Position numbers and translations under genes: made by a program
The notes under the pieces: model-generated
The model's input: only the letters and a program-made list of their open reading frames with translations
Told to the model about the DNA's origin: nothing
Databases searched by the model: none
Virus record (IMG/VR): IMGVR_UViG_3300048768_000063
Coordinates: 1 to 45,098 of that record
Length of the DNA stretch: 45,098 nt
Direction: 5' to 3' (one strand)
Source of the DNA: a virus
Shown here: piece by piece, positions 22,449 through 36,611 of the stretch
Layout of the letters: every line of letters starts with the position of its first letter
How positions within the stretch are numbered: the stretch's first letter is position 1

Positions 22449-22883
22449 ATGCCCACTCCGTATTACGACCACGGTGGGATCACGATCTATCACGGGGATT
22501 GCCGCGAGGTGCTGCCTACGGTCACGGACGCGAGCGTTGACCTCGTGCTCACCGATCCGCCCTACGGGCACAACAACAACAACGGTGACCTCGCCCATCG
22601 GTGGGAGGAAGCCCTTGGCCTGGTGAAACGTGGTGTGGCTACGGCCGGGGAGGCCAGGCCAATAGCCAACGATGGCCCAGAGGCGAACGAGATGGTCCGC
22701 TGGATGTTCGGACACGCAGCGAGGGTCATCAAGCCTGGCCGCTCGGCTAGGTGTGACTGCCACCGACGTACTGGCGATGGCCGAGACTCTCGGTCCGGCC
22801 CGCACGGTCCATCCTGCGGACCTGGCGTCCGAGCGTCGTCATCAGGATGCCCAGATGACTCGCAGCCAGCGCGCTGCCTTTGA
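22449..22883 (+). pseudogene. Truncated DNA methyltransferase (N6/N4 type)
   Basis: The first about 97 residues are a normal start of an N6-adenine/N4-cytosine methyltransferase: YHGDCREVLP and LVLTDPPYGHNNNN with the catalytic DPPY (36-39). After ARVIKPG the frame turns into low-quality Arg/Ser/Gly sequence. The expected target-recognition part and the C-terminal AdoMet-binding F/GxGxG motif are missing. From about 22740 the DNA is instead coding in another frame, so a deletion has joined this gene to the end of a different one. The product should be inactive. Confidence 0.7.
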
Positions 22884-25120: not shown

Positions 25121-25339
25121 ATGACCGCGTACTACAACGAGATCGACAAGTTCGCTGCCCAGTGGCTGCGTAACTTGATCGCCGCTGGCCACATCGCGCC
25201 CGGCGAAGTCGACACGAGGAGCATTGACGATGTCAAGCCCGATGATGTGCGGCGTCTGCTGGCGCTTGAGTTTGGCATAGCCGAACCCGCGACCACCATA
25301 TCCTTGGGAATTATATACTTGACTCCCTTGGCAGTTTAG
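25121..25339 (+). pseudogene. Probable C5-cytosine methyltransferase gene cut by the transposon
   Basis: The first about 43 residues (MTAYYNEIDKFAAQWLRNLI, then GHIAPGEVDTRSIDDVKP) match the conserved opening of phage Dcm-like cytosine methyltransferases, where a QCHFFAGIG motif should follow. Here the sequence changes, runs into the transposon's left inverted repeat at 25304 and stops inside it at 25339. No remainder of the gene appears beyond the right end. The call of a methyltransferase start is from memory of that N-terminus. Confidence 0.55.
25304..25328 (+). repeat. Transposon left inverted repeat
   Basis: Begins TTGGGAATTA and ends TTGACTCCCT. It is identical to the reverse complement of 28052-28076. 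It contains the TTGACT used as the -35 box of the transposase promoter. Confidence 0.95.
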
Positions 25340-25347
25340 GGTAGATT
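25319..25347 (+). promoter_or_regulatory. Transposase promoter
   Basis: TTGACT (25319-25324) inside the left repeat, 17 bases, TAGATT (25342-25347). A leader of about 15 bases with GAGG precedes the GTG start at 25370. Confidence 0.55.
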
Positions 25348-25369
25348 TGCTGTAGAAAGTGAGGCCGTC

Positions 25370-26293
25370 GTGAGCCAATCTACCATCTCAACCTTCCAGC
25401 TTTTCCAGATGTTTCCCGACGCGGAAACCGCTCGAATCTACATGGAAAAGCGCCTCTGGCCGTCTGGCCCCACGTGCCCCTGCTGTGGCCTTGGCGAGCG
25501 CATCACGACGCGCAAGGATGGCTTCTACCGCTGCAACCAGTGCCAGGAAGACTTCACCGTCAGGACCGGCACCATCTTCGAGCGAAGCCACGTTCCGTTG
25601 CACAAGTGGCTCTACGCGATGTACCTGCTGGTCACGGCCCGCAAGGGCATCTCATCGATGCAGCTTGCCAAGGAAATCGGCATCACGCAGAAGTCCGCCT
25701 GGTTCGTCCTGCATCGTATCCGCGAAGCGTGCGGCCCGGACATGAAGAAGCTCCAAGGGATCGTCGAGGTTGACGAAACCTACGTGGGTGGCAAAGAGAA
25801 GAACAAGCACGAGAGCAAGAAGCTCCACGAGGGCCGGGGTGCAGTAGGCAAGACCGCCGTCCTGGCCCTACGTGAACGTGGCAAAAGCGGTCGCACGGTT
25901 GGATTCCCCGTGGCCTCGGTGGACAGTGCAACGATTCACGCTGAAATCCGCGCGCACGTTGAAGCGGGATCCACGCTTCACACTGACGAAGCCGTGGTCT
26001 ACAACGGGTTGGAGCCTGCCTTCAAACACGAGAGCATCAACCACAGCGCCCGCGAGTTTGCCCGTGGCAACGTAACCACCAACGGCATTGAAAGTTTCAA
26101 CGCCCTGTTGAAGCGTGGCATCCTCGGCGTGTACCATCACGTGAGCCCGAAGCATCTTCCACGCTACGTCAACGAGTTCTCATTCCGACTGAACGAAGGC
26201 AATGTCCGCAATCACACCACACAACGGCTTGACAGTCTTATCCGTCGCTCGGCTGGCAAGCGTCTCACATTGGAGGCACTGACGAATGCCTGA
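25370..26293 (+). CDS. IS1595-family DDE transposase
   Basis: A 307-residue product with a GTG start. The N-terminal zinc ribbon is Cys36, Cys39, Cys55 and Cys58 (CPCCG, CNQC), followed by a helix-turn-helix region (about 90-120). The catalytic triad is Asp135 in VEVDETYVGGK, Asp206 in LHTDEAVVY and Glu241 in NGIESFNALLKRG. Length and motif spacing are those of complete IS1595 (ISXO2-like) transposases, so it should be active. Transposition joins the IRs to target DNA. It is the first gene of the element and overlaps the small gene after it. Confidence 0.92.
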   Translation: MSQSTISTFQLFQMFPDAETARIYMEKRLWPSGPTCPCCGLGERITTRKDGFYRCNQCQEDFTVRTGTIFERSHVPLHKWLYAMYLLVTARKGISSMQLAKEIGITQKSAWFVLHRIREACGPDMKKLQGIVEVDETYVGGKEKNKHESKKLHEGRGAVGKTAVLALRERGKSGRTVGFPVASVDSATIHAEIRAHVEAGSTLHTDEAVVYNGLEPAFKHESINHSAREFARGNVTTNGIESFNALLKRGILGVYHHVSPKHLPRYVNEFSFRLNEGNVRNHTTQRLDSLIRRSAGKRLTLEALTNA

Positions 26294-26447
26294 AACAACT
26301 ACGGAAGTCCCCAAGGTGCTTGAGGCCATGGTGGACATGGTGTTGCGCTACAGACCGAAGCCGACAAGTGCTGCGCAGAAGAAGCGGAAGAGAAAGCGGA
26401 GGAAGGCGAAGGTCTTGCAATCGTGCGGCGGAATGGAGGGGGCATGA
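26286..26447 (+). CDS. Small basic transposon-encoded protein
   Basis: A 53-residue product overlapping the transposase end by 8 bases and the methyltransferase start by ATGA. The sequence is LEAMVDMVLRYRPKP followed by KKRKRKRRKAK, a strongly basic patch. Small basic proteins of this look are found beside IS1595 transposases; they may bind DNA or support transposition. Function not established. Confidence 0.55.
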   Translation: MPETTTEVPKVLEAMVDMVLRYRPKPTSAAQKKRKRKRRKAKVLQSCGGMEGA

Positions 26448-27379
26448 ATTCGGCATCAAATGTGGCTATGTCTGTGGAAACTCCCAATCGGGCTAGGCCG
26501 ATCTTGAGACGTGTCAACAACGCCCAATACTCCTTGTATTTAGGGGACTGTCTCACATGGATGGACGAAAGAGCCTCGAACTCCATCGAGGCTATAGTTA
26601 CAGATCCACCCTATGGCTTGCGGGAATACAATGAAACGGAAAAGCGCAAGCTGCGCCATGGGCGTGGTGGCGTGTGGCGCATTCCCCCCGCGTTTGATGG
26701 TTGTAACAGAAGCCCACTGCCAAGATTCACCACCTTGACCGACGAGGATAAGGACAATTTGTCGGCTTTCTTTGTGGACTTCGCTAGGCGAGCCCTTCGC
26801 ATTTTGGTTCCAGGAGGGCACATTATGATGGCCTCGAATCCACTGCTTTCACATCTGGTTTTCGGGCCATTGATGACAGCGGGCTTCGAGAAGCGTGGGG
26901 AGATCATACGACTGGTTCAAACCCTACGTGGTGGGGATAGGCCGAAGAACGCCCATGCTGAGTTCGACGATGTGACGGTGATGCCTCGTTCGGCGTGGGA
27001 ACCGTGGGGGCTCTTCCGCAAACCCTGCGAGGGAAGAGTGCAAGACAACCTGCGCAAGTGGAAGACAGGAGGACTTCGCAGGCCATCTGCCGATCTTCCA
27101 TTCAGTGACGTTATTCGCTCATCACCGACACGTCCCGAGGAACGTCGCGTGTCTCCGCATCCGTCTCTAAAGCCCCAGGCATTCATGCGGCAGATCGTCC
27201 GTGCGGCTCTTCCACTTGGGCAGGGGACCATTCTTGATCCATTTCTTGGAGGCGGTTCAACGATAGCGGCGGCTGTGGCGGTCGGATACAACTCCATTGG
27301 AGTTGAGAGCGATGTTCAATACTTCGGAATTGCCGAAAGAGCCGTGGTTGCGTTGTCTCAACTGCAAATCGATGACTAA
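26444..27379 (+). CDS. DNA methyltransferase (N6-adenine or N4-cytosine), transposon cargo
   Basis: A 311-residue product. Motif order is that of the beta-type group: YLGDCLTWM, AIVTDPPYG (DPPY 54-57), a target-recognition middle, then LKPQAFMRQIVRA and ILDPFLGGGSTIAAAV (AdoMet motif I, about 264-280). All motifs are present, so it should be active, unlike the relic at 22449. It methylates a specific base in a DNA site. The nuclease encoded convergently, ends overlapping by 4 bases, is its likely restriction partner. Confidence 0.88.
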   Translation: MNSASNVAMSVETPNRARPILRRVNNAQYSLYLGDCLTWMDERASNSIEAIVTDPPYGLREYNETEKRKLRHGRGGVWRIPPAFDGCNRSPLPRFTTLTDEDKDNLSAFFVDFARRALRILVPGGHIMMASNPLLSHLVFGPLMTAGFEKRGEIIRLVQTLRGGDRPKNAHAEFDDVTVMPRSAWEPWGLFRKPCEGRVQDNLRKWKTGGLRRPSADLPFSDVIRSSPTRPEERRVSPHPSLKPQAFMRQIVRAALPLGQGTILDPFLGGGSTIAAAVAVGYNSIGVESDVQYFGIAERAVVALSQLQIDD

Positions 27380-27984
27380 CGGTCCAAGTAGATCCAATTC
27401 TTTCTGAAGGAAAGCAGGCCGCTTTTGTCGAGAGTTGCGGTTCTTGTCCCGAGTTCGCCACGAGCATTTTTCCTAAAGTCACTCACGGACACTTTGCCTA
27501 AATACACTTCTTTGAATGACATCGGCAAACGAGACACCGCCGGTTCCGTAACGCCATCTATTGCGTAAACGAACACGCACATCCACTGGTCACGAGCACC
27601 ATGCGTATCCACAGCACCGCCAGACTTTCGAGTGGTCTTGATCTCGACGCCGTCAGCGCCAGACTGAATTCCGTTTTTTGGATACCTTCCCTGAACGACA
27701 AGATCCGGGTGCCCGTTGAAATAGGTATTCTGTACGAGGGATCGCGCGTGCTTGGCCATGCTGGCGGTCAGCATGTCGGACAACATCCCCGACATAATTG
27801 CAGGTCGCAACATGTCATCAAGCCTCTGCAATCCCTTCGTCGCCATGAGCACGTTCACATCATGGAAGAAATCGTAGACATCCTGCATGGCAACCTGGAA
27901 ATCTTCCAAACGAAGCTCGAACGGCAGATCCGCCGAATCGTTGAAGGATTTCAAGTTGACCTTGCCTCGGTTTGTCGTGGCCAT
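27376..27984 (-). CDS. Probable type II restriction endonuclease (PD-(D/E)XK)
   Basis: A 202-residue product with an ATG start. Residues 92-116 hold HPDLVV, 18 residues, then GVEIKTTRK: a PD...ExK metal site (Asp94, Glu114, Lys116) as in restriction enzymes. No helicase or specificity domain is present, and length fits a type II enzyme. It converges on the methyltransferase with a 4-base stop overlap, the usual way such pairs are packed. Recognition site unknown. An alternative is another PD-(D/E)XK nuclease, but the pairing argues for restriction. Confidence 0.75.
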   Translation of the reverse strand: MATTNRGKVNLKSFNDSADLPFELRLEDFQVAMQDVYDFFHDVNVLMATKGLQRLDDMLRPAIMSGMLSDMLTASMAKHARSLVQNTYFNGHPDLVVQGRYPKNGIQSGADGVEIKTTRKSGGAVDTHGARDQWMCVFVYAIDGVTEPAVSRLPMSFKEVYLGKVSVSDFRKNARGELGTRTATLDKSGLLSFRKNWIYLDR

Positions 27985-28051
27985 CGCCGCAGAGTCGCGC
28001 GGGAATCGCGGCGTTGCAAGTTTTTGGGCTTGCGCGCTATCCTACATCACG

Positions 28052-28076
28052 AGGGAGTCAAGTATATAATTCCCAA
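28052..28076 (-). repeat. Transposon right inverted repeat
   Basis: The exact reverse complement of 25304-25328. On the + strand it begins AGGGAGTCAA and ends ATAATTCCCAA. Confidence 0.95.
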
Positions 28077-28441: not shown

Positions 28442-29596
28442 TTGAAGTTCCATCCAGCCGCTGAAGTTTTTCCCCTATTGGTAGGCAAGGAATTTGCCGC
28501 CCTCGTGTCCGACATCAAGGAGCACGGGCAGATCGATCCGATCCTCGTCCTGGACGGGATGATCCTCGACGGACGCAACCGCTGGCGGGCGTGCCGGGAG
28601 GCCAGCGTTGAGCCCAAGATGAAGGATTGGCCCGGCGGAAATCCTTGGGACTTCGTTTGGAGTAAGAATGCCGAGCGACGTCACCTCGAACCGGGCCAAA
28701 AAGCGGCAATCCGCTACAAGGTCGAGAAAGGGTCCGATGCTTGGCTAGCTAAGCGGAAAGCCGCGGAGGACAAGGCGAACCGGGCCAGAAGCGAGAGCCA
28801 GAAGGGAAAGCCAAGGCCAACGCAGAAAGATCGGGAGACGGTGACGGATGGGAGGGAACGTGTCCCCTCACGAGACGGGACACGTTCCCATGGTACTCAC
28901 CAGTCCCACGCCGCATCCGCCCTTGCGGCATCGTCGCACACCAGCCGGGCCACATCGGAGCGGGTAATTGCGCTTGAGAAGAAGAACCCCGAGCTTTTTG
29001 AGAAGGTGTGCAGCGGCGAGATCAAGCTTGGAGGTGCATGCCGAGAGGCGAAACGAAACGAGTCATCCGAAAGACTCAAGGGTTTCGCGCTTCCCACTTC
29101 GGCAGACGGGCCATTCGGCGTCATCGTTGCCGATCCTCCTTGGACCTACGACAAGCGAGCGGAGGACGATACGCACCGTGGGGCCTGCCCATATCCCTGC
29201 ATGAGCCTTGACGCCATCAAGGCAATCGAGATTCCCGCAGTGAACGACGCGATCCTGTGGCTTTGGACGACGAACGCACATCTTGAGCACGCTTTTGGGA
29301 TCTGCCGCGCTTGGGGTTTTGACCCGAAGACGGTGTTGACGTGGGTTAAACAAAAAATGGGTCTCGGCGACTGGCTGCGGGGGAAATCGGAACACTGTTT
29401 GCTCGCCGTGAAGGGGCGGCCCACCGTCGTGCTCACCAATCAGACGACGGTGCTTGAAGCGGCGGCGGCAGAACATTCGGCGAAGCCTGACGAGTTCTAC
29501 TCAATGGTCGAGAAGCTGTGCCCAGACACTCGCAGGCTGGAGCTGTTCTCGCGCCGCAAGCGTGACGGCTGGTATTGCTCCGGGTGCGATCTGTGA
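28442..29596 (+). CDS. ParB-domain / MT-A70 adenine methyltransferase fusion
   Basis: A 384-residue product with a TTG start and AGGAGAGC upstream. Residues about 10-55 are a ParB/sulfiredoxin-like domain (PLLVGKEFAALVSDIKEHGQ, ILDGRNRWRAC). A helical, charged linker follows (100-205). The C-terminus is an MT-A70 methyltransferase: GVIVADPPWTYD (DPPW 231-234), ILWLWTTNAHL, KSEHCLLAVKGRP, ELFSRRKRDGW. It should methylate adenine N6 using AdoMet, with the ParB part probably helping DNA contact. Phage enzymes of this plan commonly protect DNA from host restriction. It is GTGA-coupled to a nuclease gene. Confidence 0.88.
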   Translation: MKFHPAAEVFPLLVGKEFAALVSDIKEHGQIDPILVLDGMILDGRNRWRACREASVEPKMKDWPGGNPWDFVWSKNAERRHLEPGQKAAIRYKVEKGSDAWLAKRKAAEDKANRARSESQKGKPRPTQKDRETVTDGRERVPSRDGTRSHGTHQSHAASALAASSHTSRATSERVIALEKKNPELFEKVCSGEIKLGGACREAKRNESSERLKGFALPTSADGPFGVIVADPPWTYDKRAEDDTHRGACPYPCMSLDAIKAIEIPAVNDAILWLWTTNAHLEHAFGICRAWGFDPKTVLTWVKQKMGLGDWLRGKSEHCLLAVKGRPTVVLTNQTTVLEAAAAEHSAKPDEFYSMVEKLCPDTRRLELFSRRKRDGWYCSGCDL

Positions 29597-34016: not shown

Positions 34017-34940
34017 ATGGCTATCATGTCGGCTGAGCAGGCAATAGATTATGTGTCGGGCCTGATGCTCACGCACCGAGGACCGAACGCGGACGGAGTG
34101 GCGCCGTCTGACGAAGCGATTGAGGCGCTGCGAGCGGAAATACTCGAAGCATTTCCCCAGAAGTGCCCGGTCGTCACGGTCGTGGCAAGGTCGCAACTAG
34201 ATGCTGTGCGTATTGCGCAGGAGCATGGGTGTCCAGCGGAAGAGTTGTATTCACGGGGCGCCGCTGGAGAGATGCAGTTGCAGTACGATTCGTTTGGGGC
34301 AGCGACTTCAAGCTACTCGATAGGAGGTACGCTGGTCGCGCATCTGTGTGGTGAATATGACCTCAAGGAGATGGCAGGACCAATTGAACACGCAGTGCGG
34401 ACGGTGCATGCGGAAATAGCCGGATCGATTTTTCTGGAAGGCGATGGAGAGCCCTCGGTGTTAATCATCGTTCCATTGCCAACGCGCGAACGCCGAGACG
34501 AGTTGAAGCGATTGCACTGCGCCGATGGCCCCGCAATTTCCTACATCGATGAAGATCGGTGGTATTGGCACGGGATGGCGGTGCCGCGCGACGTGATCAT
34601 GCGAGATCAATGGAGCACCAGTGAGATCGACGAACTCCCCAACACCGAAATACGCAGAGCGCTCGCCGAGCGACTGGGCGGGGCGAAGACATTGGATATG
34701 ATGGGCGCTACGACCATCGACGAGCGCGACGGATACAAGCTGGTCGGCGTCGCACGGGTAGCAAAACGCTATCTCGTGATGACGTCTCCAGTGCTCCGGG
34801 ATGGGACTACCCCGATCTATATCGAGTCAGTGTCTCGTAATTGTGAGACAGCATTGGGGGCGAGAAAATGGCGCGTGACTGAACTGTCTGAGAGTGAGTG
34901 TGACGAAAACCCAGCTCTTAAATATGTCATGGAGAGCTAG
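34017..34940 (+). CDS. DUF6745-like protein
   Basis: A 307-residue product; ATG 34017 has GTGGAGG about 8 bases upstream. The middle (LHCADGPAISYIDEDRWYWH, VPRDVIM, then NTEIRRALAERLGGAKTLDM) follows the pattern of DUF6745 proteins, whose role is unknown. The N-terminal 150 residues are mixed helix and strand. The gene lies just before the low-complexity array. Confidence 0.6.
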   Translation: MAIMSAEQAIDYVSGLMLTHRGPNADGVAPSDEAIEALRAEILEAFPQKCPVVTVVARSQLDAVRIAQEHGCPAEELYSRGAAGEMQLQYDSFGAATSSYSIGGTLVAHLCGEYDLKEMAGPIEHAVRTVHAEIAGSIFLEGDGEPSVLIIVPLPTRERRDELKRLHCADGPAISYIDEDRWYWHGMAVPRDVIMRDQWSTSEIDELPNTEIRRALAERLGGAKTLDMMGATTIDERDGYKLVGVARVAKRYLVMTSPVLRDGTTPIYIESVSRNCETALGARKWRVTELSESECDENPALKYVMES

Positions 34941-34941
34941 T

Positions 34942-35085
34942 GTGACTCGCGTAGTACCGAAGCACCAGCGGGCGTCGTGGTCGTCGTGGGCGTCGTGGGC
35001 GTCGCGGTCGTCGTGGGTGCGGTCGTGGTCGTCGTGGGCGTCGTGGTCGTCGCGGTGGTCGCGGTCGTCGTGGAGGCTGCCATGA
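34942..35085 (+). CDS. Array ORF 1: Ser/Trp-rich small protein
   Basis: A 47-residue frame from GTG 34942 (in-frame ATG at 34924): an MTRVVPKHQR-type head, then a body of Ser, Trp, Ala and Arg only, ending WRLP. The stop overlaps the next start (ATGA). Translation is unproven. Confidence 0.35.
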   Translation: MTRVVPKHQRASWSSWASWASRSSWVRSWSSWASWSSRWSRSSWRLP

Positions 35086-35246
35086 CTCGCGTAGTGCCGA
35101 AGCACCAGCGGGCGTCGTGGTCGTCGTGGGAGTCGCGGGCGTCGTGGGCGGCGTGGGCGTCGCGGTCGTCGTGGGCGGCGTGGGCGTGGCGGGCGGCGTG
35201 GTTGTGGGCGTCGTCGTGGTCGGCGCGGGCGTGGAGGCTGCCATGA
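35082..35246 (+). CDS. Array ORF 2: Ser/Trp-rich small protein
   Basis: A 54-residue frame: MTRVVPKHQR, Ser/Trp/Ala-rich body, WRLP end. It is ATGA-linked on both sides. The conserved head and tail around a variable body are the main reason to list it. Confidence 0.35.
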   Translation: MTRVVPKHQRASWSSWESRASWAAWASRSSWAAWAWRAAWLWASSWSARAWRLP

Positions 35247-35458
35247 CTCGCGCAGTGCCGAAGCACCAGCGGTCGTCGTGGGAGTCGCGGGCGTCGTGGG
35301 CGTCGCGGGCGTCGTGGGCGGCGTGGGCGTCGCGGGCGTCGTGGGCGGCGTGGGCGTCGTGGGCGGCGTGGTGGTCGCGGTCGTCGTGGGAGTCGTCGTC
35401 GTGGGCGTCGTGGTCGTGGCGGGAGTCGTCGTCGGCGCGGGCGTGGAGGCTGCCATGA
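35243..35458 (+). CDS. Array ORF 3: Ser/Trp-rich small protein
   Basis: A 71-residue frame: MTRAVPKHQR head, Ser/Trp/Ala/Arg body with SWASRASWAAWA-type repeats, WRLP end. It is ATGA-linked on both sides. Confidence 0.35.
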   Translation: MTRAVPKHQRSSWESRASWASRASWAAWASRASWAAWASWAAWWSRSSWESSSWASWSWRESSSARAWRLP

Positions 35459-35664
35459 CTCGCGCAGTGCCGAAGCACCAGCGGTCGTCGTGGGCGTCAT
35501 GGGCGTTACGGGCGTCGTGGGCGTCGTGGGCGGCGTGGTGGTCGCGGTCGTCGTGGGAGTCGTCGTCGTGGGCGTCGTGGTCGCGGTGGTCGCGGTCGTT
35601 GTGGGAGTCGTCGTCGTGGGCGTCGTGGTCGCGGTGGTCGCGGTCGTTGTGGAGGCTGCCATGA
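35455..35664 (+). CDS. Array ORF 4: Ser/Trp-rich small protein
   Basis: A 69-residue frame: MTRAVPKHQR head; the body includes a duplicated SSSWASWSRWSRSLW block; WRLP end. It is ATGA-linked on both sides. Confidence 0.35.
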   Translation: MTRAVPKHQRSSWASWALRASWASWAAWWSRSSWESSSWASWSRWSRSLWESSSWASWSRWSRSLWRLP

Positions 35665-35846
35665 CTCGCGCAGTGCCGAAGCACCAGCGGTCGTCGTGGG
35701 CGTCATGGGCGTTACGGGCGTCGTGGGCGTCGTGGTCGTGGTGGTCGTGGTCGTCGTGGGCGTCGCGGTGGTCGCGGTCGTCGTGGGAGTCGTCGTCGTG
35801 GGCGTCGTGGTCGCGGTGGTCGCGGTCGTCGTGGAGGCTGCCATGA
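35661..35846 (+). CDS. Array ORF 5: Ser/Trp-rich small protein
   Basis: A 61-residue frame: MTRAVPKHQR head, Ser/Trp-rich body, WRLP end. Its stop overlaps the ATG of a normal-looking small membrane protein that also begins MTR. Confidence 0.35.
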   Translation: MTRAVPKHQRSSWASWALRASWASWSWWSWSSWASRWSRSSWESSSWASWSRWSRSSWRLP

Positions 35847-35941
35847 CTCGCGAACGGTTTCACTTCGAGATCGAGGGCCTGCTCTGGCGCGCGCTGTTGG
35901 TAGGGCTGATCTTCTCGTGCGCGTTCGTTACGAAATGCTGA
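35843..35941 (+). CDS. Small membrane protein after the array
   Basis: A 32-residue product: MTRERFHFEIEGLLWRALLV then GLIFSCAFVTKC, with one apolar segment. It begins in the stop of the last array ORF and ends one base before the transglycosylase ATG. It may be the original member from whose start the array grew, and could take part in lysis with its neighbour. Confidence 0.45.
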   Translation: MTRERFHFEIEGLLWRALLVGLIFSCAFVTKC

Positions 35942-35942
35942 C

Positions 35943-36611
35943 ATGAACACCTTGGCCCTTCTCCTTGCCCTCGGCTTCCCCGCGCTGGGCGCGTCCCACG
36001 CGCAGGCGGAGCCGGTCAAGCCGTCCCTGGTGTGCCAGGTCCAGCACGCAATCCGCTGGCGTGACCCCGCATGGACCGAGCAGCAATGCCAGGCCCGCGC
36101 GCGCGAGTTCATGGCTAGCGGTCAGCGCTGGGGATTCGCGCCGGTGCAGCTCCTGGCCATGGCCATCGACGAGAGCGACTTGCGGCCAGAGGCCATGCGC
36201 GAGGACCGCGGTGCCCTGGACGTGGGGCTGATGGCGGTGCGCTGCCATCTCAGGCGGACGATTATTCCAATGGCAACCAGCGACGGCAAACAACCAAATG
36301 ACGCGCGAAATATTCCAAAGAATATTCCATCGCCCACCTGCACGAACAAGCCGGTGCGCGGCCTCACCCCGGCTCAACTCATGCGGCCCTCGGTCAACAT
36401 CGACATGGGGGCGCGCATCCTGGCGACGCTCCACCGTGGCAGCCTAGCCGGCTACAACGGCGGACCGAACGCCCGCGAGCATGGATATCCCGAGAAGGTG
36501 GCGGCCATCATGGCGGCGCTCGGCGGCGTGGAAGTGCGAGTCTCGGGAAAGCGGATGCGAAAGCTGGTCAGGCAGATTGTCATAGCTACAACAAAGAAAG
36601 GCGAGAAATGA
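35943..36611 (+). CDS. Exported lytic transglycosylase (SLT-like)
   Basis: A 222-residue product with a signal peptide (NTLALLLALGFPALGASHAQ, cleavage after AQA near 22). The SLT fold is seen as LLAMAIDESDLRPEA (probable catalytic Glu77), ALDVGLMAV, LMRPSVNIDMGARIL and GSLAGYNGGP. The enzyme cuts the glycan strand of peptidoglycan. As an exported protein outside the lysis region it may help at entry or complement the CHAP endolysin. A segment of about 50 residues between GLM and LMRP is longer than usual. Confidence 0.75.
   Translation: MNTLALLLALGFPALGASHAQAEPVKPSLVCQVQHAIRWRDPAWTEQQCQARAREFMASGQRWGFAPVQLLAMAIDESDLRPEAMREDRGALDVGLMAVRCHLRRTIIPMATSDGKQPNDARNIPKNIPSPTCTNKPVRGLTPAQLMRPSVNIDMGARILATLHRGSLAGYNGGPNAREHGYPEKVAAIMAALGGVEVRVSGKRMRKLVRQIVIATTKKGEK

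Follow-up and report, generated by a model that had tools for sequence, protein, structure and literature searches.

How restriction-modification (RM) systems move between genomes, and whether transposons residing in phages carry them, is the question raised by a four-gene unit in the IMG/VR viral record IMGVR_UViG_3300048768_000063, the whole of which (45,098 bp) was analyzed and is referred to here as the window. The unit encodes a transposase, a small basic protein, a DNA methyltransferase (M) and a nuclease (R), and had been predicted from its sequence to be an IS1595-like transposon that inserted an RM pair into a phage genome. Following comparison with related elements, we are fairly confident that it is a 'transporter IS' of the IS1595 insertion sequence (IS) family, belonging to a phage-associated clade and carrying two putative RM enzymes; a transporter IS of this type probably mobilizes RM cassettes among phages. 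The parts foreseen by the original prediction all proved to be present, perfect 25-bp inverted repeats enclosing an intact IS1595-like DDE transposase, a small basic protein, a complete DNA methyltransferase and a convergent PD-(D/E)XK nuclease. Insertion in a phage genome is borne out by the terminase, portal, DnaB-like helicase, RecE-like exonuclease and endolysin genes of the record, and the element is indeed richer in AT than the phage (55.4% GC compared with 61.3% for the rest of the record), R having the lowest value (51.7%) and the transposase gene 58.8%.

The element and its relatives in viral contigs

The inverted repeats at 25304-25328 and 28052-28076 are 25 nt long and 100% complementary. 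Comparison with sister elements places the element proper at 25306-28074 (2769 bp), with 23-bp terminal inverted repeats (TIRs) that start with GGG, and assigns the outer TT/AA to flank or target sequence. The exact 23-bp end was found in 49 stretches of viral contigs, a transposase profile detected at least 418 relatives in IMG/VR, and 93 distinct elements with paired ends were delimited from the fetched loci; apart from the window's own, these were collected through the transposase or the ends and not through their cargo. Perfect 8-bp target duplications, as made by elements of the IS1595 type, flank 65 of the 93 and are 84% A+T, and near-duplicate elements with different duplications represent separate insertions. 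Lengths range from 1.16 to 3.5 kb, in every case longer than a bare IS, so each element carries DNA beyond its transposase. Three further loci in viral contigs (L120, L101, and L125) have the same ends and no transposase and, at 213-391 bp, resemble miniature inverted-repeat transposable elements; L125 has a perfect 8-bp duplication.

The possibility that the repeats arose by chance and that an unrelated IS simply happens to lie next to a long-standing RM locus of the phage was considered, as the M-R pair lacks a transposase in nearly all genomes that have it. It was rejected and is given next to no credence here, since the same ends bracket related transposases and variable cargo throughout the 93 elements, most of them with perfect duplications.

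The window transposase matches PF12762 (2.5e-46) and NF033547 (2.3e-61), its N-terminal zinc ribbon matches PF12760 (4.6e-8), and D135, D206, and E241 are among the invariant residues of the family; zinc ribbon, ISXO2/IS1595 DDE domain and matching TIRs around the gene place the element in the IS1595 family. Outside IMG/VR, no match at E <= 1e-90 was obtained in 369 genomes of one bacterial class, and 385 genomes of another yielded one partial match of 64% identity. The best plasmid transposases are 47% identical, the best matches among phage records 37% or less, and IS1595 elements in genomes holding the same R 52% or less. These samples are small beside IMG/VR, and phage specificity is therefore not proven.

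Most elements encode a small basic protein, usually located either just behind the transposase gene or some 150 bp short of the right end. A profile built from the 53-aa open reading frame (ORF) of the window and its relatives matches 86 of the 93 elements, 85 of them on the transposase strand, and did not match at bacterial-genome RM loci or at other fetched bacterial IS1595 loci, except for L214/L227, a close relative of the window clade and the sole bacterial locus checked that has the protein. Fusions of it with the methylase are present in L113, L281, and L227, and the version in L098 has diverged. In the structural model, an RPKP linker joins one helix to a second, basic one (predicted local distance difference test [pLDDT] score about 92 in the core). 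The protein is a putative clade-specific accessory that would most simply be a DNA-binding helper or a regulator of transposition. A -35 hexamer within the repeat, followed 16-18 nt on by a -10-like hexamer, is present at 31 of the 93 left ends and at 2 of the right ends, a difference from which the left end is predicted to drive the operon. The 23-bp end was also seen to combine an inward TTGACT with an outward TATAAT (67/93 left and 59/93 right ends), and the latter could allow insertions to activate neighboring genes.

An 8-bp target duplication had been expected at the window copy as well and was not found: the flanks read ATATCCTT and AAAAATTG, and no alternative duplication of 3-12 bp surrounds the element, which thus differs from an unrearranged IS1595 insertion. 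The left flank is the 5' part of a phage gene for a C5 DNA methylase and codes for 43-51 N-terminal residues; L145 and L283 have methylases of this kind as cargo. A deletion adjoining the insertion would explain both the missing duplication and the truncated neighbor, and probably removed most of the methylase gene; it remains unproved because no empty-site relative turned up, a search with the neighboring gene at 28442-29596 having returned only an identical contig and distant phages. That contig, from another metagenome, is 100% identical over the 17 kb compared and represents the same phage with the element at the same site. The expectation that the same unit would recur elsewhere holds for the ends with related transposases, shared by no fewer than 92 further elements, 65 of which have 8-bp duplications, but not for the full four-gene unit, which has no independent copy beyond the identical phage; its movement as a unit is therefore not shown. 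The missing duplication, the adjacent deletion and the two contigs sharing one site, together with sisters whose transposases are truncated, would also suit a former transposon now fixed in a phage lineage, its RM pair being kept as an ordinary phage cassette. We think this doubtful, as the intact transposase ORF with conserved catalytic residues and the perfect 25-bp repeats suggest recent activity.

A putative type II restriction system

M matches PF01555 (6.7e-15) and PADLOC MTase_II (7.2e-120) and contains the motifs DPPYG and DPFLGGGST; its likely ATG start overlaps the stop codon of the small ORF (ATGA). No match to R was obtained in Pfam, NCBIfam, PHROGs or PDB sequences, PADLOC gives a weak REase_II match (0.028), and plasmid homologs are annotated as hypothetical proteins. 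With the structural model of R (pLDDT 90), the first 36 PDB matches returned by Foldseek are all type II restriction enzymes, headed by EcoRV, NaeI, NlaIV, BglI, and SfiI (E from 4e-3, probabilities to 0.97, template modeling [TM] scores 0.3-0.4). The predicted fold is likely to be of the EcoRV class, allowing for these modest scores, and the putative active-site residues PD94...E114xK116 are invariant in an alignment of 42 sequences.

A single scan of GTDB genomes found 200 relatives of R, and the best 80, which were kept, are 65-74% identical to it and come from Acidobacteriota, Nitrospirota, Chloroflexota, Planctomycetota, Verrucomicrobiota, Pseudomonadota, and other phyla. With the identical phage left out, an M homolog adjoins R in 82 of 83 loci checked, in agreement with the predicted co-occurrence of the two genes; 77 of 81 measured pairs are convergent, with a median of 24 bp between aligned matches. 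M has catalytic and S-adenosylmethionine-binding motifs, the adjacent R has a restriction-enzyme-like predicted fold and active site, and the two are linked, and the pair is read as an uncharacterized EcoRV-class type II restriction system. The empty family and PDB searches and the weak PADLOC score would also fit a different enzyme, such as a homing or DNA-repair nuclease, that is linked to M by chance. This is very improbable given the adjacency of the two genes across many phyla, their mostly convergent arrangement and the resemblance of the R fold to EcoRV-class enzymes. No lead to the recognition site came from the PDB sequence search, in which R had no match.

The same M-R pair, with about 65% R identity, was noticed on very small plasmids, namely NZ_CP104462.1 (2150 bp) and several 4938-bp plasmids of Klebsiella and Citrobacter. 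In viral contig L085 (3990-4880) the two genes are in tandem and not convergent, and lie beside an IS1-type-looking transposase, which suggests a second IS association of the pair.

Table 1. Features of the element and its left flank (positions in the window)
Feature	Position	Strand	Basis or remark
Phage C5 DNA methylase, N-terminal remnant	25121..25273	+	Remainder absent from the record; probable adjacent deletion
Left TIR, GGGAATTATATACTTGACTCCCT	25306..25328	+	Inward TTGACT (-35-like), outward TATAAT
Promoter-like TTGACT-17-TAGATT, into transposase gene	25319..25347	+	Consensus match only
IS1595-family DDE transposase, 307 aa, intact	25370..26293	+	IS1595 models, conserved catalytic residues
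Basic two-helix protein, 53 aa	26286..26447	+	Start overlaps transposase stop; hallmark of the transposon clade
DNA N4/N6 methyltransferase (M)	26423..27379	+	Listed GTG start 26423; likely ATG start 26444
PD-(D/E)XK nuclease (R), 202 aa, predicted EcoRV-class fold	27376..27984	-	Convergent with M, stops overlap by 4 bp
Right-end leader to R start codon	27982..28076	-	97% identical in L095, with an unrelated nuclease there
Right TIR	28052..28074	-	Matches left end, common to sisters

Cargo of the family and its exchange

DNA methyltransferases are the commonest recognized cargo of the family, accounting for 17 of 75 cargo ORFs by Pfam (11 C5, 4 N6/N4, 1 D12, and 1 Dam), and every other functional family matches at most one of these ORFs. 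Among the ORFs flanking the elements on the same contigs, methyltransferase families match at least 3 of 140, counted among the first 25 of 68 matching families; the difference is significant with this flank count (Fisher p = 2e-6) and with a count of 6 (p = 9e-5). Several sisters carry methylases with recognizable nucleases, namely a C5 methylase with an Eco29kI-like GIY-YIG nuclease (PF09517, 7.5e-16) in L095, with REase_II in L113, and with REase_II and Vsr in L098. L163 carries an 883-aa HsdR_N/N6-methylase fusion, and the methylases of L128 (D12) and L281 (C5) are accompanied by unrecognized proteins of 361 and 245 aa, respectively. Cargo resembling PAPS reductases or PP-loop proteins was seen by eye in L134, L139, L156, L241, L246, L248, and L294, in one case above the Pfam threshold.

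Close sisters of the window element differ in what they carry. Over the retained C-terminal part, the transposases of L095, L163, and L177 are 93-95% identical to that of the window, yet L095 carries the C5 and GIY-YIG pair, L163 the 883-aa fusion and L177 a D12 methylase; both ends are present in L095, one in L163, and none was recognized in L177. The window and L095 are 97% identical in the 95 bp at the right end that lead up to the start codon of the nuclease gene, and the nucleases themselves are unrelated. The phages hosting L095 and L163 are related (backbone 70-77% identical), and at both loci the restriction cargo, which differs, comes after a homologous head-morphogenesis-like gene.

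The original prediction also proposed a search for copies of the unit in bacterial genomes. No whole unit was found there, but a degraded relative with the same M family occurs in the alphaproteobacterial genome G487 (the order-level search around which covered one genome), where the small-protein motif, joined to M in one ORF, comes after a degraded sister transposase that has a left end, and a different 188-aa ORF comes next. The M of this locus (L227) is 71% identical to that of the window. Together with the M of L085, the two form a clade (support 98/94) apart from other M sequences, a pattern suggesting that this sublineage of M is mobile and that R has been exchanged. The 188-aa ORF (L227 10766-11332) has a possible PD...ExK pattern and is perhaps a different nuclease for the same M family.

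A number of observations weigh against the interpretation of the window unit as a mobile RM carrier. The window copy has neither a target duplication nor an independent counterpart for its full set of genes. Of its close sisters, L095 and L163 have transposases that are missing their N-terminal half, no duplication matches around L095, and a single end is recognizable in L163. Owing to these truncations, recombination inside phage genomes, and not transposition, may account for some of the variation in cargo. Elements with methylases are in the minority, short unrecognized ORFs being the content of most, and the best Foldseek E-value for R is only 4e-3, with TM scores of 0.3-0.4.

The bias toward methylases could also mean that the family is kept since cargo methylases shield phage DNA from host restriction, the window nuclease being incidental. 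Most methylase-bearing elements have no recognizable nuclease, solitary methylases are common in phages and have been proposed to act as antidotes (PMC4176335), and the window phage itself has further methylase genes, one of the ParB-N/MT-A70 type at 28442-29596 that is apparently intact and the broken C5 gene. This selection on methylases alone appears unlikely to be the full account, however, as the R ORF is intact with active-site residues invariant across 42 homologs, and complete but unrelated M and R pairs occur in several sister elements.

Elsewhere in the phage, an ORF at 22449-22883 begins like an N4/N6 DNA methylase (DPPYGHNNNN) and ends early, so that a second phage methylase may be broken. 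A repeat tract at 34927-35852 is GC-rich with strong strand skew and contains several overlapping low-complexity ORFs; GC content reaches 72% and AT skew -0.54 over 35001-36000.

Proposed mechanism and relation to known systems

In the mechanism proposed here, the left TIR would supply the -35 box of a promoter-like site before an overlapping operon of transposase, small basic protein and methyltransferase, and the nuclease gene would be read inward from the right end. The transposase would act on the 23-bp GGG...CCC ends and insert the element into AT-rich 8-bp targets, as shown in 65 sister copies and presumed for the window copy, with the small basic protein assisting or regulating transposition, perhaps by binding DNA. 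From fold, motifs and linkage, M would methylate a site that R would cut if unmethylated. The cargo slot appears to have been refilled repeatedly, among recognizable cargo mostly with methyltransferases and in several cases with complete, unrelated restriction systems, suggesting that the clade shuttles RM cassettes among phages. The likely benefit would be modification of carrier DNA combined with exclusion of competing phages or addiction to the carrier; the enzymatic activity of the M-R pair, defense of the infected cell and stabilization of the phage are presumptive. We are evenly divided on the broader proposition that a phage-adapted IS1595 lineage, marked by GGGAATTATATACTTGACTCCCT-type ends, a two-helix accessory and an exchangeable slot, shuttles methylases and complete RM systems between phages.

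The family may help to explain how RM systems move between genomes, as such a transposon, at about 3 kb small enough for a phage genome and with its restriction systems swapped time and again, would be a concrete and testable vehicle. If this is true, the phage IS1595 lineage would form a mobile reservoir of restriction systems, which phages are otherwise reported to lack almost entirely. R represents a widespread and highly conserved putative restriction nuclease missed by Pfam, NCBIfam, and PHROGs, and the small basic protein a probable clade-specific transposon accessory brought to light by comparison of the family. The open-licence literature yielded no description of IS1595 elements with RM or phage methylase cargo, nor of an IS1595 clade that is associated with phages, has a small protein of its own and exchanges its restriction cargo. 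The phage-dwelling family with its swapped methylases and restriction systems is apparently large and undescribed, a novelty that is provisional.

IS1595 'transporter ISs' with passenger genes are known (Siguier, Gagnevin and Chandler, 2009, as cited in PMC3129680). The elements described here resemble them in the zinc ribbon and ISXO2-type DDE transposase, the GGG-initiated repeats, the passenger genes beside the transposase and, in sister copies of the window element, the 8-bp AT-rich duplications. They differ in that the window clade is found mainly in viral contigs, the closest bacterial and plasmid transposases being mostly 52% or less identical (one, a partial match, 64%), and in having a small basic protein of their own and cargo in which methyltransferase and restriction genes are enriched. 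Movement of RM systems with ISs or within transposons is likewise known (PMC3031569; PMC4176335). IS-linked movement was observed in the laboratory for the type II system PaeR7I, when an external chromosomal IS became joined to a plasmid (Takahashi et al., 2011, PMC3031569); as in that case, RM genes here would move with an IS and restriction could select for retention, but the window genes are inside a single IS, between its own ends. R is akin to the EcoRV, NaeI, NlaIV, and BglI class in its best fold matches, PD...ExK motif and paired methyltransferase, and differs from it in lacking sequence similarity and in its low TM-scores. Eco29kI-type GIY-YIG systems are represented within the family by L095, whose C5 methylase and Eco29kI-like nuclease are bounded by the same ends; these enzymes are unlike the window pair, and the comparison illustrates the exchange of cargo.

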